Source: Buchnera aphidicola (Periphyllus acericola) (lineage in GTDB: Bacteria > Pseudomonadota > Gammaproteobacteria > Enterobacterales > Enterobacteriaceae). From it: DNA of 64,000 nt. The first letter of the stretch is position 1. Every line of letters begins with the position of its first letter. Below are positions 30,303 to 40,191 of the stretch, piece after piece. A program made the translations under genes and the position numbers. The notes under the pieces were generated by a model, which worked only from the letters and a program-made list of their open reading frames with translations, was not told where the DNA came from and made no database searches. The stretch lies in NCBI RefSeq assembly GCF_964019855.1, contig NZ_OZ026466.1, forward strand, positions 124,001-188,000, in the 5' to 3' direction.

Positions 30303-33300
30303 ATGATAAAAATTTATACTTCTAATGATTTTAATTATTTAATAAAAAAAATATGTCATATTATGAATAAAAAATCATTTAAAAATATATTTATAAAAGA
30401 AATAATTGTAGTTCCAGATATTGAAATTTCACAATTTATTAAAAAAATAATTAAAAAAATTTTTGGAATATTTTGTAATATTTCATTTTTTACAAAAGAA
30501 AAATTTATATTTTATATATTAGAATTATTTATATATAAAAAAAAATATAAAAGATTTAATAAAAAATTTATTTTATGGGAATTAATGAATTTATCTGAAT
30601 CTTTTCAAAAAAAAAATATTTTTAAAAAAAAAGAAAACGAATACACAAAATTAAAATATTTTAATAATATTTCAAAATTTTTTTTTCAATATCTTATTTA
30701 TAGAAAAAAATTAATAAACAATTGGGAAAAAAATAATAAAAAATATAAAGAAAAAATAATATTAAAACAAAAAAAAATGTGGAAAAAAATTATAAAAAAA
30801 AATAATTTTCATTATTTAAATTTAAAAAAAAATTTAATCAAAAAACATAAAATAAAAAAAAAATATAAAAATTTACCTCATAGAATATTTATTATAAATC
30901 CAATAAACTATCCAATTTCTTATATTAAAATTTTAAAAAAAATTAGTTATAAAATAGATATTTATTTTTTTTTATGTACACCTTTTAATCATAATATATT
31001 AGAAAAAAAATATTTTTTTAAAAATTCAAATATACTATATTGGACTAAAAATTATATAAACAAAATAAATTATATTTTCTCACTCACAACAAAAAAAAAA
31101 AAATTATATATTAATAATAAAAAAAATACGTTATTAAATGTTATTAAAAATAAAATCTTTAATTATAAAAATAATATTTTTTTTCAAAACAAAATAATTG
31201 AAAACGATAATTCAATATCTATACATGAATGTTCAAATCGTTTAAGAGAAATAGAAATATTACAAGACAATATATTAAATATTTTAAAAAAAAATAAAAA
31301 TATAAAACCAAAAGATATAATTGTAAAAACAAAAAATATTCAAAAATATATACCATATATAAATTCAGTTTTTAAATCAGAAATTAAAAAAAATAATATT
31401 CCTTATTTAATACATGAAAAAATTTTTGATAAAAATAATCCTATTTTATACATTTTTAATAAAATTTTATCTTTACAAAAAAATAAATTTAAAAGTACAA
31501 AAATATTAAATTTTTTAAATTTCAATTTTATAGCTAAAAAATTTTCTATTACAACTAAAGAAGTAAAAACTATTAAAAAATGGGTTTTTGATACAAAAAT
31601 ATGTTGGGGAATTAATAAAAAACATAAAAAAAAAATAAATTTTCCTGAAATAAATCAAAATACATGGAAATATGGAATAAAAAAAATAATTTTTGGTTAT
31701 GGAATGTATAAAAAAGATATACAATGGAAGAATATTTTTCCTTATAATATTCATGAAAAAAAAGATATAAAAACATTAGAAAAACTAATATTTTTTATAA
31801 CAACATTAAAAAAATGGAAAAAAAAGTTATCAACAAAAAAAACATGTAAAACATGGAAAAAAATATATAAAAATATAATCGATGATTTTTTTTATAAAAA
31901 TAAAAAAACAAAAATATATTTAAAACATATAAAAAAAAAATGGAACTCTTTATTAAAAGAAATTTTAGATAGCTCTTATAAAAAAAAAATATCTATAAAA
32001 ATTATAAAATATATAATAAACAAAAAAATTAAAAAAATATATTTAAAAAAAAACTATAATAATAATATAATTTTTACAAATTTTAATGTTTTACAAACAC
32101 TTCCATTTAAAATTACTTATATATTAGGAATGAATAATAATTTTCCTAAAAAATATATAAGTAATCAAGAAAACTTAATTAATTTATATAAAGAAAAAAT
32201 GGATTTAAAAAAAAATAAAGAAGATTTTTTAAATTTTTTGGAATTAATTGGATTTACTAAAGAAAAAATTTTTATAAGTTATATATATAATTCATCAGAA
32301 AATATTCTAAATAGATATTCTTTTTTATTAAAATATTTAATTGAATATATAAAAAAAAATTTTTCTTTTAAAAAAAATAAGTTATTATTTATACATACAA
32401 AAAATGATTTTTATAAAGAAAATTTTTATTTAAATAATAATTTTAATAGTTTTCATTCAATATGGAATTTATCTAAAAAAAAAAAATTTATAAAAAAAAA
32501 ATTTATAAAAAAAATTTTAAAATCTAAAAAAATTAAAAAAATAAAATCTATAAAATTAATTGAATTTTGGAAAAATCCAATAAATTATTTTTTTCATAAT
32601 ACATTAAAAATATATTTTAAAAAAATAAATTTAATACAAAAAAATCATGAACCATTTTATACAAACTTGAAAGATCATTATTTAATAAATATAAAAATTT
32701 TAAACTATTTAATTTTTAAAAAAAATATTAAAAAATTATTCAAAAAAATAAAATCTACAGGAATATTACCATATGGAAATTTAGGTAAAATATATTTTAA
32801 TGAACAAATAAAAAAAAATCAAAAAATTTATAAAAAAATAAATAAATTAAAAGTTTCTTTAAAAGAAATAAAAATTAAATTAAAAATAAAAAAATTTAAA
32901 ATATACGGAAAAATAAAAAATATTTCATCTAAAAATGGAATTTTAAGATGGAAACCATTTAATTTAAACTATCATGATAAATTAAGTTTGTGGTTAGAAC
33001 ATATTTTATATTGTTCAAATGGAGGAAAACATAAAAGCACATATATTGGATTAAATAATAAAATTATTTTTAAAAATATAAAAAAAAAAAAAGCAAAAAA
33101 ATATCTTTTAAAATATATATTTGGATATATTCAAGGATTAACTAATCCAATACCTTTAATTCAAACAGGTATAAACTGGTTTCATTATATATATAACAAA
33201 AAAAAAAATAAAATTTCAAAAGATAGAGAAATTATTCAATATAGTAAAAAAAAAATGATTGAAACATGGAATGGAAACAAATACTTTATAGGTGAAAAAA

Positions 33301-33410
33301 ATAATTTATATATAAAAAAAATATTTAAAACTTTAAATAAAAAATCAATTAAAAAAATATTTAGAATAACAAAATATTGGATTAAACCTATGTATAAAAA
33401 TATTTTATAA
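30303..33410 (+). CDS. recC: Exodeoxyribonuclease V gamma subunit RecC
   Basis: The Chi-recognition and scaffold subunit of RecBCD, which processes double-strand ends for recombination. It has 1035 residues (E. coli 1122). The reading frame is intact but extremely lysine/isoleucine/asparagine-rich. Recognisable blocks include HECSNRLREIEILQDNIL, LPFKITYILGMNNNFPK and ILPYGNLGKIYF. Position upstream of recB and recD is decisive; ptrA, which lies between recC and recB in E. coli, is gone (31-base spacer). Confidence 0.9.
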   Translation: MIKIYTSNDFNYLIKKICHIMNKKSFKNIFIKEIIVVPDIEISQFIKKIIKKIFGIFCNISFFTKEKFIFYILELFIYKKKYKRFNKKFILWELMNLSESFQKKNIFKKKENEYTKLKYFNNISKFFFQYLIYRKKLINNWEKNNKKYKEKIILKQKKMWKKIIKKNNFHYLNLKKNLIKKHKIKKKYKNLPHRIFIINPINYPISYIKILKKISYKIDIYFFLCTPFNHNILEKKYFFKNSNILYWTKNYINKINYIFSLTTKKKKLYINNKKNTLLNVIKNKIFNYKNNIFFQNKIIENDNSISIHECSNRLREIEILQDNILNILKKNKNIKPKDIIVKTKNIQKYIPYINSVFKSEIKKNNIPYLIHEKIFDKNNPILYIFNKILSLQKNKFKSTKILNFLNFNFIAKKFSITTKEVKTIKKWVFDTKICWGINKKHKKKINFPEINQNTWKYGIKKIIFGYGMYKKDIQWKNIFPYNIHEKKDIKTLEKLIFFITTLKKWKKKLSTKKTCKTWKKIYKNIIDDFFYKNKKTKIYLKHIKKKWNSLLKEILDSSYKKKISIKIIKYIINKKIKKIYLKKNYNNNIIFTNFNVLQTLPFKITYILGMNNNFPKKYISNQENLINLYKEKMDLKKNKEDFLNFLELIGFTKEKIFISYIYNSSENILNRYSFLLKYLIEYIKKNFSFKKNKLLFIHTKNDFYKENFYLNNNFNSFHSIWNLSKKKKFIKKKFIKKILKSKKIKKIKSIKLIEFWKNPINYFFHNTLKIYFKKINLIQKNHEPFYTNLKDHYLINIKILNYLIFKKNIKKLFKKIKSTGILPYGNLGKIYFNEQIKKNQKIYKKINKLKVSLKEIKIKLKIKKFKIYGKIKNISSKNGILRWKPFNLNYHDKLSLWLEHILYCSNGGKHKSTYIGLNNKIIFKNIKKKKAKKYLLKYIFGYIQGLTNPIPLIQTGINWFHYIYNKKKNKISKDREIIQYSKKKMIETWNGNKYFIGEKNNLYIKKIFKTLNKKSIKKIFRITKYWIKPMYKNIL

Positions 33411-33441: not shown

Positions 33442-36400
33442 ATGAATAATAAAACTAAAAAAAAAATTTTTTCAATTTTATTTAATGGAATAAATATGAT
33501 TGAAGCTTCAGCAGGAACAGGAAAAACTTTTACAATTATATTATTATATCTTAGATTACTATTAGGATTTAATAACAAAAAAAAAAATATTTAGTAAAAG
33601 AAATTTTAATTATTACATATACTAATAATGCAAAGATAGAAATACAAAATAGATTATCAAAAAATATTTATAATTTTTACATTGATTTAAAATTAAAAAA
33701 AACAAGAAATAAAAACTATAAAAAAATATTTAAAAAAATAAAAAATTTTAAAAAAAGTAGAAAAATATTAAAAATTGCTTATTTAAAAATAAATCATGCT
33801 CCAATCTATACAATTCATGGATTTTGTAAAAACATACTAAAAAGTTATAATCTTACTTATAAAAACACTATTAAAAAAAAAATATATCAAGATCAAGAAA
33901 TATATAAAAAATCTACATATGATTTTTGGAGAAAATTTATTGTTCCACTTGAAAAAAATATTTTAAATATAATTTTAAAATATTGGAAACATCCAAAATA
34001 TTTATTATTAGAAATAAATTCATGGTTAAATATTAAATCAAAAGTTTTTATATATAAACAAAAAAAATATAATATTTTAAAAAAACATAAAAAAAATATT
34101 AAAAAAATTTATAATTTTAAAATAAAATGGAACAAAATTAAATCAATTTTGAAAAAATTTTTTTTAAAAAAAAAATTAAATAAAAGAATTTATAATAAAA
34201 AAAATATTTTTAACTGGATCAAAAAAATAACGATATGGTCAAAAAAAAAAACTATAAATTATAATTTTCCAAAAGAAATAAATAAATTTTATGAAAAAAA
34301 AATATATGATAAATTATCTAAAATTGAAAAAATAAAATATAAATTTTTAAAAATAATAAAAAATTTTTTAAAAAACAATTTTTCATTAAAAAATATTATT
34401 TTACTACAAGCAATAAAAAAAATTAAACATATTTCTAATATAAAAAAGAAAAAAAAATTTTGTTTTGATAACTTAATTAAATTTCTTCTTTTAAAATTAA
34501 AAAATAATAAAAAACTATGTCATTCTATTGAAAAAAAATTTCCTATTGCATTTATTGATGAATTTCAAGATACAGATTATCAACAATATGAAATTTTTAA
34601 AAAAATTTATCAAAATTATAAAAAATCTTCTTTAATTTTAATAGGAGATCCAAAACAATCTATATATGCATTTAGAGGAGCAGATATATTTTTTTATTTT
34701 AAAATAAAATCTAAAATATCAAATATATATAAGTTAAATACAAATTGGAGATCCTCATATAAAATAATTAAAAATATAAATTTTTTATTCAGCCAAATAA
34801 AAAACAGTTTTATTTTTAAAGAAATAAAATACACACCATTAAATTATACGAATGAATCAAAAAAAATAAAATTAATAATAAAAAAAAAAGAACAACCTTC
34901 AATAACATTTTGGTTTAAAAAACAAAAAAATAAAAAATTTTTAGAATATGATTCTTGGATTGCAAAAAAATGTGCAAAAAATATTTTTTATTTAATAAAA
35001 CAAATTAAACAAAATAATGCTTTTTTAAAAACATCTAATTCTACAAAAAAATTAGAAATAAAAGATATTTGTATATTAATTAAAAATTATAAAGAATATA
35101 AAAAAATAAACCATGAATTAAAAAAATTTAAAATAAATTCTCATTATACTTCTAATAAAAAATCTATCTTTCAAACACTGGAAGTTCAAGAAATGTTTTA
35201 CATATTAAAATCTATTTTAAATATATCAAACGAATTATATTTAAAAAAAGCGCTTTCTACTTCTATAATATTTAAAAACTCTTATGAAATATATCAATTA
35301 AAAAAAAAATATAATATATTATCAAATATATATAAAAAATTTTATAATTATTTAAAAATATGGAAAAAAAATGGAATTTTAAATTTAATAAAAAAAATTA
35401 TTTATGAAAGTCACTTATATAAAGAATATTTTTTTAAAAATAAAAATAAAAAAAAAATTTCAAATTTAATTCATTTATCTGAAATATTAGAAAAAAAATC
35501 TATTTTAAAAAAAAAATTCGATGCATTATTAATTTGGTTTAAAGAAAAAATAAAAAATAAAAAAAATATAAAGAAAAAATATTATGAAAGATCTGATTAT
35601 AAAAAAAAAAATACTATACAAATAGTAACAATATATAAATCAAAAGGTTTAGAATATCCAATAGTATGGATTCCATTTATTTCAAATTTCAAAATTTCAA
35701 AAAAATTAATTTATCATAATAGAAAAACATTTAACACTTATATTAATATTAATAATAATAAAAAAAAAAATAAACTTGAAGAAGAAGAAAGATTATCAGA
35801 AGATATTAGATTATTATATGTTGCAATAACTAGATCAAAATTTCATTGTAGTATAGGAATAAATCCATTAATTCAAAAAAAATCAATTACAAAAAATACA
35901 AATTTTCATAAAAGTGGACTAGGATATATTTTACAAAAAGGAAAAAAAATGAATATTTGTCAATTATCAAATAAACTTAAAAAAATTTGTTTAAATAAAG
36001 GAATGTCAATAAAATCAAAAGAAAAAAAATATTTACTTAAAAATAAAAAAAAAGAAAATAAAAAACAATGTATAAAAAATATATTTAATAGAAATTTTAA
36101 AAAAATATTATATACAAGTTATACAAAAATTAATAAAAATAATTTAAAAAAAAATATAGCTATTATAAAAAATAAAAAAAAAACAAAATATAATCAATAT
36201 TTCTTTCCACAAGGTAAAAAATACGGTATTTTACTTCATAAAATACTAAAAAAAATAAATTTTAAAAAAAAAATAAAAAAAAAATTTTTGTTTAAAATAT
36301 TTAAAAAAAAAATATGTAAAAAATGGTTAAATATATTAAAAAAATGGATTAAAAATATAATTTTAACACCATTAAATGATTATGGAATAAATTTATTTAA

Positions 36401-36884
36401 ATTAAATCAAGAAAATTACTTAAAAGAATTAGAATTTTCTTTATTATTAAAAAAAAAAATAGATTTTAATTCTATAAATAATTTAATAAATAATAAAAAA
36501 AATATATATGAAAAAAAAGTTAAAGGAGTATTAAAAGGTTTTATTGATATTGTTTTTCAAGATAAAAAAAAATATTATTTAATTGACTTTAAATCTAATT
36601 ATTTAGGAAAAAATAAAAAAAAATATAAAAATAAAGAAATTGTTAGAACAATAAAAAAAAATAGATATGATATTCAATATTATATATATTCTGTTGCTTT
36701 ACATAAATTTTTAAAAAAAAAGTTAAAAAATTACAGTTTTAAAAAAAATTTTGGAGGAATTTATTATCTTTTTTTAAGAGGAATGAATGGTAAAGATAAT
36801 AAAACAGGAATTTTTTTTTATAAACCAAAAAAAAAAATTATTAAAAAATTAGATAAAAATTTTTTTACACAATCGAAAATATAA
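33442..36884 (+). CDS. recB: Exodeoxyribonuclease V beta subunit RecB, interrupted by a frameshift in an A11 run
   Basis: The helicase-nuclease subunit of RecBCD. ATG 33442 opens a frame with Walker A (EASAGTGKTFTI) that stops at TAG 33592-33594. Right after an 11-base A-run (33577-33587) the gene continues in another frame with ILIITYTNNAKIE, IYTIHGFCK, DEFQDTDYQQYEIF, GDPKQSIYAFRGADIF, RLLYVAITRSK and the nuclease motifs GFIDIVF and LIDFKSNYLG. One extra A would join them into about 1148 residues (E. coli 1180). The rest is intact over 3.2 kb. Polymerase slippage could rescue it; otherwise it is a young pseudogene or a sequencing error. recD starts six bases after the stop. Confidence 0.88.
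33577..33587 (+). other. A11 homopolymer at the recB frame break
   Basis: Eleven A residues at the exact point where recB loses frame. Reading 12 As restores the frame. This is a candidate site for transcriptional slippage. Confidence 0.85.
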
Positions 36885-36890
36885 AATATT

Positions 36891-38720
36891 ATGTTAAATA
36901 TAATTAAAAATCTTCTAAAAAAAAAAAAAATAAAATTAATAGATTTCTATTATGCAAAAAATATTTCAAAAAAAAATGATCCATTAATTTTAATTATTTC
37001 AATTTATATAAGTTTTCAATTAAGAAAAGGAAATACTTATGTTTCTTTAAAAAAAATTTTTAAAGATATGTTTTTTTCAAAAAAAATTTTAAAGAAAATT
37101 AAAATAAAATATAATTTAAAAAAAATTAAAAATTATTTATTAAAAAGTGATTCAATAGGAAAAAAAAATACAAATTATCCATTAATAATAGAAAAAAATT
37201 ATTTGTTTTTAAATAAAATATGGAATATTGAAAAAAATATATATAACTTTCTTAATAAAAAATATGAATTAAAAAAATATAAATATTCTAAATGGAAAAA
37301 AATATTAAACAAAAATTTTTTTAAAAAATTAAATACTGAACAAAAAAATGCAATAATATTATGTTTGTTAAATAAATTTACTTTTATAATAGGTAAACCT
37401 GGAACAGGTAAAACAACTATCATTTCTATTATAATTTACTTTTTCTTAAAACTATCTAAAAATAAAAAAATAATTTTAACAGCTCCAACTGGAAAAGCTA
37501 GTGCAATTCTTCTAGAATCAATAAAGAAAAACAAATTATTATTAAAAATAAATAAAAAATTTAAAAAATATATACCTAATTCATCATTTACAATACATGA
37601 TTTTTTTAAAATAAATTTATATAACGAAAATAATATATTTTATAAAAAAAAAAAAGTTCAAGCAAATATATTAATTATTGATGAATCATCAATGATTGAT
37701 ATTTTTATGTTTGATAAAATAATTAATTTAATATATAAAAATACACAAGTAATTTTCATAGGAGATAATTATCAATTACCTTCTATTAATATAGGATCTA
37801 TTTTAAATGATATTTATATATTTTTTTTAAAAAATAAAAATATAAATTTATATTTAAATTTTAAAGAATGTATAAAAAATAAAAAATTTAATCAAAAATT
37901 CTATAAAAAAAATATTTTTTTAAAAAATAAAATATGTATTTTAAATAAACAATATCGATATAAAAAAAAATCAGATATAGACATATGTTCTAAAATAATT
38001 AAAAAATTTAAAAAAAATAAAATTAAAAAAATTATAAATAATAAATATAAAAATTTTAAATTTTTTATTATTAAAAATAAAAAAAAAATTTATTTAAAAA
38101 TAACAAAAAAAATATTTTTATTGTATAAAAACTATTTTAAAATGGTTATAAATAAACAATCTATAAAAAAAATTTTAGAGGAATTTAATAGAATAAGAAT
38201 TTTATGTATTTTAAAAAAAGGTTGGTATGGAGTAAAAGGAATTAATAAAATTTTTAAATTTTTTATAAAAAAAAAAAAAATAACATACTTTAAAAAAATT
38301 AATAAAAAAGAATGGTATATAGGAAAACCTATTATAATTAAAAAAAATTTAAAAAATATTAAATTATTTAATGGAAGTATAGGAATTACTCTTTTAGATA
38401 AAAAAAATGAAATGAAAATATTTTTTTTAATGCCTAATAATTCAATTAAAATAATTCCAATAAACATAATTAAAAAATATAAAACAACATGGGCAATTAC
38501 TGTTCATAAATCTCAAGGTTCAGAATTTAATCATATAATTTTAATTTTACCTTTAAAAAAAAATAAAATTATGTCAAGAGAAATAATTTATACAGCAATT
38601 ACAAGAGCAAAAAAATATGTTTGGATTTATTCAAAAAAAAATATTTTTATAAAATATATTAAAAATAGAATTATTAAAAAAAGTGGACTAATAAAAAAAT
38701 TAAAAAATATAAAATATTAA
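36891..38720 (+). CDS. recD: Exodeoxyribonuclease V alpha subunit RecD
   Basis: The 5'-3' superfamily 1B helicase of RecBCD. It has 609 residues (E. coli 608). Walker A is IGKPGTGKTTII near residue 170, the next block is TAPTGKASAILLESI, Walker B is ILIIDESSMID, IFIGDNYQLPS is motif III, and the C-terminal VHKSQGSEFNHIILILP and IYTAITRAKK are motifs V and VI. It begins six bases after recB and probably shares its transcript. It contains an A14 run (38267-38280) without loss of frame. Confidence 0.95.
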   Translation: MLNIIKNLLKKKKIKLIDFYYAKNISKKNDPLILIISIYISFQLRKGNTYVSLKKIFKDMFFSKKILKKIKIKYNLKKIKNYLLKSDSIGKKNTNYPLIIEKNYLFLNKIWNIEKNIYNFLNKKYELKKYKYSKWKKILNKNFFKKLNTEQKNAIILCLLNKFTFIIGKPGTGKTTIISIIIYFFLKLSKNKKIILTAPTGKASAILLESIKKNKLLLKINKKFKKYIPNSSFTIHDFFKINLYNENNIFYKKKKVQANILIIDESSMIDIFMFDKIINLIYKNTQVIFIGDNYQLPSINIGSILNDIYIFFLKNKNINLYLNFKECIKNKKFNQKFYKKNIFLKNKICILNKQYRYKKKSDIDICSKIIKKFKKNKIKKIINNKYKNFKFFIIKNKKKIYLKITKKIFLLYKNYFKMVINKQSIKKILEEFNRIRILCILKKGWYGVKGINKIFKFFIKKKKITYFKKINKKEWYIGKPIIIKKNLKNIKLFNGSIGITLLDKKNEMKIFFLMPNNSIKIIPINIIKKYKTTWAITVHKSQGSEFNHIILILPLKKNKIMSREIIYTAITRAKKYVWIYSKKNIFIKYIKNRIIKKSGLIKKLKNIKY

Positions 38721-38775
38721 AATTTATTTTTTTTTTATAATTTTTTTATATTTTTTATTTTTATTTTTTTATTTT

Positions 38776-38849
<74 letters not shown>

Positions 38850-40191
38850 ATATTTTTTATAACAAATATAATAACATTTATTAAAAATAAATACAATATT
38901 TTTTTTTTTTTTTATAAAAAAATATAAACAAACTTTAAAAAAAAATATTAATTTATGATAAAATAATATATCTTATTTTTTTAAAAACATTATATTTTAA
39001 TAGAATAAAAAAATTAAATCTAGTTTATTCTCTAAAAATTTAAAAAATTTATATAAAATAATAAGATTCAATAAATCATTAATAATAAATTATTAAAAGA
39101 ATATATTAACATATTAAAAAAAATAGAAAATATTCATAAAGAAAATATTAATATTATAAAATACTAGAAACCTATGATATAAAAATTACTCCAAAAAATA
39201 TTTTTTTTAAAAAAAAAATCATAAAATTATTACATTAAAATAAAATTATTAAAAATAAAAAATATATCATAAATTTATAGAAAAATCATTTATATATTTA
39301 ATATATAAATTAAATTTATCTTCTCATATTTTAATTACGTTAGTTTTATTAATAACTAAAAATTTTAATCAAAAATTAGAAAAATATGGAATAAAAAGTC
39401 AATAATAAAAAATTAAAAAAACTACATTAACTACACTAAAAATTATTAACGTTATATAAAAAGTTAAAAAACTATAAATATAATAAAATTTTTTTTATTA
39501 TATTATATTAAAAAATATTTATATAAAAAATATATATGTGAAAAATCACAAAAAATATATAAAAAAATGAAATAAATTTAATAAAAAAATTAATTTTTAA
39601 AACCTTTAAAAACCTAATAGTTAATTATATTATTGTAAAAAATAATATTATTGTTAAAACAAGATGCATAAAAATTTAATTAAAAAAATATAGAAATTTT
39701 TAATTCAAAAGAAGCTAAAAAAATCTTCTTATAGAATAATAATGTGTGTTAAATTAAACAATTTTTTTACTATAGTAAAATAGATTAATTATAATCTGAC
39801 ATAAAAAAATTTTTATTACAATCAAAAAATAAAAATATAAAAATTTCAGAAAAAATATAAAAAAATTTTAAAAAATTATATATCTTGTATTATTAAAAAA
39901 AAAAAAAAAAAAAATATATTAATTGAAATTTATTTTAAATAATTTAAAAAAAAAAAAATAATAAAACAATAAAAATTCAAAATAAAATTTTATTAATTCG
40001 AATAAAAAACAATAATTTAAAAATAGAGAAAAATATTTAATCAATAAAGATAAAAAATTTTTTAATCTAAAAAAATAAAGTTTAAAAAAATTTCAAAAAT
40101 ATACCCTGACATAAAATTTGTTATTATATTTTAAAAAAAAACATATAAAATATATAAATAAAATTTAATATATAAAGAAAATAAAATAAAA
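38850..40191 (+). other. 1.34-kb gene-free decayed region
   Basis: No open frame of convincing length exists on either strand. Stops are frequent in all frames, and short coding-like patches (for example around 39292-39405, reading SSHILITLVLLITKNFNQK before a stop) are scattered on the plus strand. A 20-base A-run is at 39895-39914. The pattern fits one or more genes eroded between the initiator tRNA and nusB. In E. coli argA follows recD and ribE precedes nusB, but no similarity to either is readable. Confidence 0.55.
39895..39914 (+). repeat. Poly(A) tract of 20 bases in the decayed region
   Basis: An uninterrupted A20 run in the gene-free stretch before nusB, consistent with loss of coding constraint. 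Confidence 0.8.

Follow-up and report, generated by a model that had tools for sequence, protein, structure and literature searches.

The recB gene of Buchnera aphidicola from the aphid Periphyllus acericola, which lies in the 64,000-nucleotide window analysed here (part of a 459,522-bp single-contig genome), is interrupted by a frame break at a run of eleven adenines (A11). Sequence comparison leads us to posit, with a probability of about 0.62, that recB is functional and carries a tolerated −1 poly(A) frameshift, its product probably being made through RNA polymerase slippage on A11. Breaks of this kind recur across recB, recC and recD of many Buchnera, a pattern absent from the original prediction.

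The recB frame break and its occurrence in close relatives

The two parts of recB had been predicted to lie in different frames that meet at the A-run, and the open reading frames and profile matches both agree with this (Table 1). The frame opened by the first ATG reads MNNKTKKKIFSILFNGINMIEASAGTGKTFTIILLYLRLLLGFNNKKKNI and ends at a TAG (33592-33594) two codons past the run, while the frame of position 33588 begins YLVKEILIITYTNN and continues stop-free to 36884; both pieces match the RecB profile TIGR00609, in order, and its whole length is covered when both frames are read. In a frameshift-aware alignment with an intact relative, the window gene shows one break and zero stops over 1,137 aligned codons. 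The accompanying claim that recB is intact past the run and that recC and recD are open is likewise borne out by the lack of a stop to the end of the gene, by the single break and by the profile matches. The 1.47 kb 3' of recD (38721-40191), in which there is no ORF of at least 60 aa and a tRNA-Met (cat) lies on the minus strand at 38775-38850, are possibly the remains of a lost gene.

Table 1. Features of the recBCD locus (positions are those of the window)
Feature	Position	Strand	Evidence
recC	30303..33410	+	1035 aa, uninterrupted; NF008289 1.2e-171; survey: no frameshift
recB 5' piece with Walker A (EASAGTGKT)	33442..33594	+	TIGR00609 2.3e-12, profile 4-38
A11 run, frame break	33577..33587	+	A12 in frame in P. 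aceris symbiont; out of frame in G006 (A11) and G001 (A14)
recB remainder, helicase motifs and nuclease domain	33588..36884	+	1,098 codons plus stop, open throughout; TIGR00609 1.6e-248, profile 41-1173
recD	36891..38720	+	609 aa, uninterrupted; TIGR01447 6.9e-129

Among the genomes compared, the nearest relative is the Buchnera of Periphyllus aceris, whose RecB is 91% identical and matches E. coli RecB in an alignment to 1w36_B. Its orthologous run (L022) is A12 with one frame reading through, so that the A11 of the window represents a real deficit of one base (or, equivalently, two extra bases). At the position of the run, the same alignment places a loop that reads LGLGGSAAFPRPLTVEE in E. 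coli RecB and LGFNNKKKKYLVKE in this lineage, with differing lengths; in the window gene, the fourth lysine of the LGFNNKKKKYLVKE loop is present only after repair of the frame. In the P. aceris recB itself, the first ATG is out of frame by way of an A12 run near the start (L022:7840-7910), while an in-frame internal ATG lies just before Walker A, an arrangement that could reflect a start further in or a second site of slippage.

Two of the four other close genomes, from projects separate from one another, carry a recB break at the site seen in the window: G006 (451,592 bp) has an out-of-frame A11 there and G001 (456,890 bp) an out-of-frame A14. The G007 recB is broken at a different A11, at codon 202, and has no run at the window's site. 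In all four interrupted genes, the window's included, one extra base is needed at these breaks. An ancestral frameshift shared at the recB site was considered and found unsupported, given that the P. aceris run is A12 and in frame and that G007 lacks a run there. The G001 gene has a second break in an A-rich linker region at codon 874 (L038, reverse strand), the sole +1 case counted, which fits decay in the G001 lineage; G001 falls outside the clade of the P. aceris, G006 and window genomes in both trees.

The extent to which such breaks are confined to recB was read from a survey of the five close genomes, covering about 90 genes in the P. aceris symbiont and about 130 in each of the others (192,000 codons), which for the window genome amounts to about a third, in stretches, and which takes in some 260-380 coding A/T runs of at least 9 per genome. 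No convincing internal break was found outside recB in the surveyed genes of the five genomes, the leftover calls being confined to the last 20 or so codons of genes and to a single ORF of 90 residues that overlaps a tRNA region. If breaks were spread evenly over coding A/T runs of at least 9, the probability that all four close-genome breaks fall in recB would be 1.5e-5. In the window assembly, all 357 coding A/T runs of at least 9 in the surveyed genes other than recB are in frame; the rate of frame-changing errors is therefore at most 0.84% per run (95% upper bound), with at most 0.22 expected in recB.

These counts bear directly on whether the break is an artefact, the true run being A12 and recB intact. 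Homopolymers are error-prone, and one related assembly, G250, is clearly affected. Generic sequencing error as the main cause was nevertheless rejected, as the other coding runs of the same assemblies stay in frame, and because the same-site breaks in G006 and G001 come from independent projects, we consider an error at this run improbable. The original prediction had held slippage or a homopolymer error to be likelier than a freshly dead gene; its second option is thus weakened, while its preference for slippage gains indirect support.

Selection on the recBCD genes

Between the window genome (G000) and that of the P. aceris symbiont (G002), recB past codon 50 shows a dN/dS of 0.336, below recD (0.419) and recC (0.493) but above the median of 0.152 over 91 genes. 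Ranked by increasing dN/dS among these 91, recB stands at 80, recD at 83 and recC at 87; the three genes are thus among the less constrained, and some of this relaxation is real. recB is the most constrained of the three, though it is the sole one broken here. Its ratio of nonsynonymous to synonymous changes is 1.50 on the window branch and 1.49 on the sister branch, against a neutral expectation of 4.49 (P = 0.001). The recB of the window lineage is therefore under purifying selection, with no acceleration of its rate. No stop has arisen in it, whereas neutrality along the entire branch predicts about 11, and a dead phase longer than about one quarter of the branch is unlikely.

A pair of sister genomes, G214 and G216, extends this picture to recC. 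Both have recC broken at the same A10, at codon 639, and otherwise free of stops and further breaks, and their recC has a dS of 0.39 and a dN/dS of 0.26, close to the values for their recB (0.24) and recD (0.25). If the break was inherited, the recC frame has been broken over a dS of 0.39 while constraint was kept. The recB of G214 is also broken, at about codon 108, giving this genome two breaks; a +1 call at the N-terminus of G214 reflects alignment noise and was not counted, nor were two other weak calls (recC of G102 and recD of G040).

Recurrence across Buchnera

In other Buchnera genera, the breaks first seen in these three genes occurred singly and were nearly all one base short and early in the gene, and the same was predicted for held-out genomes before their breaks were assessed; as the frame status of the held-out recB genes was partly visible before the prediction, recC and recD provide the cleanest test. 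In the two held-out genera, half of the genomes (25 of 50) have one or two recB, recC or recD breaks at A-runs. One of these genera has recC interrupted in 12 of 36 genomes; its recB is interrupted in 4, with a further draft containing Ns. In the other, Cinara-type genus, recC is interrupted in 10 of 15 and recD in 1 of 15. These last counts leave out G250, which was dropped on the grounds that its control genes are broken too. Its recBCD (L176, L207) holds about 18 breaks, mostly one base short, alongside the further breaks in control genes, and we attribute these probably to homopolymer under-calling in the public assembly.

Across Buchnera, 36 of 37 recBCD breaks fall one base short of the frame (P 5.5e-10, two-sided, under symmetry), a sense in which a single-base insertion repairs the frame; part of this excess could come from replication or sequencing being biased towards deletions. 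The breaks also lie early, at a mean relative position of 0.217 as compared with 0.494 for the available runs (P < 5e-5), and this 5' bias survives a collapse to 18 sites (P = 0.0002). We suggest that such clustering would fit selection against long truncated subunits able to bind their partners. Certain sites are hit repeatedly: recB near codon 50, in the same loop as the window break, in G226, G233 and G240, and recC at codons ~193, ~256, ~315 and 639. Since these same-site breaks are scattered over the tree, most recurrences look independent.

A special status of recBCD throughout Buchnera was considered and rejected, as in the Aphidinae-type genus the rate of breaks per A-run is 2.6% in recBCD and 2.6% in control genes; enrichment is clear only among the close relatives of the window genome. 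The frequent hits in the Aphidinae-type genus instead follow from the richness of these genes in A-runs. Other genes are affected as well, with −1 poly(A) breaks in ispA (farnesyl diphosphate synthase) at codon 273 (G208, G212, G226) or codon 168 (G213), and in a gene for an MFS transporter in G210 (located in L182, L184, L185 and L194, and in L183).

Proposed expression across the A-run and related systems

We hypothesize that RNA polymerase slips on A11 and adds one A in a minority of transcripts, so that A12 (or A15) messages would direct synthesis of full-length RecB. On A11 messages, most translation would stop shortly past the run and yield a 50-residue peptide of no use. The run falls within a loop, rich in lysine and variable in length, that links helicase motifs I and Ia, and because the loop tolerates differences in length, whole-codon gains or losses in the messages should also yield working protein that differs only in the number of lysines. 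RecA was not found in the window genome, nor was Hfq, and RecBCD probably acts here as a DNA-end exonuclease and helicase without RecA, needed in few copies. Given such a role, little RecB would be required, partial expression would be enough and selection would keep the rest of the gene. The sequences themselves show the break, its recurrence, its sense and selection on the downstream frame; that slippage takes place, how efficient it is and that little RecB is needed we infer. An E. coli cell makes do with fewer than 10 molecules of RecB and is harmed by an excess (PMC12342828). Insertions during Buchnera transcription occur mostly in A/T runs and rise exponentially up to the longest runs examined, 11 nt (PMC5574713); the same transcriptome-wide study found no restored frame, which counts against rescue. 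The harm done by excess RecBCD raises the further idea that −1 breaks are favoured as a brake on its dosage where neither Hfq nor RecA is detected; lineages would acquire and shed such breaks, as a rule one per genome, in a small number of permissive recB, recC and recD loops. We regard this as quite doubtful.

A recent pseudogene is one rival reading, homopolymer indels in Buchnera being commonly taken as the first steps of gene loss (PMC3164680). Here the base would have been lost very recently, leaving recB dead and its decay to follow, as would suit a gene with a single lesion in a weakly constrained complex; a very recent death could account for the window genome considered alone. The wider data would, however, demand independent recent deaths in many lineages, nearly all of one sense, lying in the first part of the gene and in many cases at a shared site, while both recC and recD are intact in the window; the shared recC break of G214 and G216 indicates that such genes can stay constrained, and the window branch lacks the stops expected over its whole length. 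Purifying selection, a single break that recurs in relatives, its repairable sense and the intact partners together lead us to prefer slippage to fresh death, which we consider unlikely. That restart of translation downstream gives a truncated RecB without Walker A, still able to bind RecC and to cut DNA, is far less probable again. Clustering of breaks towards the 5' end would also be expected if restarts were possible, but the first listed start past the break (TTG 34149) forfeits about 190 codons along with helicase motifs I and Ia, and recC breaks reach codons 639-803, where a restart could not help.

The frames could also be joined by −1 ribosomal frameshifting on A AAA AAA, with no part for polymerase slippage and the same biological outcome. 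The A11 run contains this slippery heptamer in a workable phase, the sequence AAC AAA AAA AAA AAT permits a −1 shift into the right frame just ahead of the TAG, and the prevailing sense of the breaks suits −1 shifting as well as it suits base insertion. However, no downstream stimulatory structure was found at two sites (fold z 0.55 and 0.65), and polymerase slippage is the better-known effect of long A-runs, being also the mechanism at work on the A11 of tssM1 (PMC4256274). Ribosomal frameshifting as the sole mechanism is therefore also unlikely, while −1 shifting possibly serves as a helper to polymerase slippage.

Polymerase slippage on A11 as the route to full-length RecB would make the window gene a new case of a known phenomenon in these symbionts. 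That such slippage has precedents in Buchnera and Blochmannia, as had been noted beforehand, is confirmed by the portion of PMC5009743 that reports corrected transcripts at 12-50%. The poly(A) frameshifts described there (Tamas et al. 2008, in PMC5009743; Wernegreen et al. 2010, in PMC3017870) resemble recB in the group of organisms, the long A-runs, the single indel in an otherwise intact gene and the retention across species, and differ in that transcripts were measured whereas recB is known from its sequence; recBCD is not among the genes described in the poly(A) passages of these two accounts. The catalogue of Aphidinae Buchnera (Degnan et al. 2011, PMC3164680) lists 1-18 genes with homopolymeric frameshifts per genome, some convergent, such as murF, and raises regulation through such frameshifts as a possibility. 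Its main text does not name recB, recC or recD, and its passages on these frameshifts, unlike the present analysis of recBCD, discuss no bias in sense or position, so that the recurrence in RecBCD across Buchnera and the sense and 5' biases appear to be additions when judged against that text. A lone homopolymer indel often leads to a gene being scored as a pseudogene, by which standard about half of the 50 sampled Buchnera would count as lacking a working RecBCD, yet selection still acts. Same-site recurrence, a one-short sense and 5' clustering taken together offer a simple comparative test of tolerated slippage versus gene death.

The closest mechanistic parallel is tssM1 of Citrobacter rodentium, in which transcriptional slippage on an A11 run restores the frame at 20-25% (PMC4256274) and full-length product comes from a minority of transcripts, as proposed for recB. 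The stop lies 28 nt past the run in tssM1 and two codons past it in recB, and both tssM1 products are used whereas the short recB product is probably useless. The dnaX and dnaG genes of Blochmannia (PMC3017870) likewise serve information processing in an insect symbiont and carry one homopolymer indel each without any increase in rate, although they are other genes in a symbiont of another host group.
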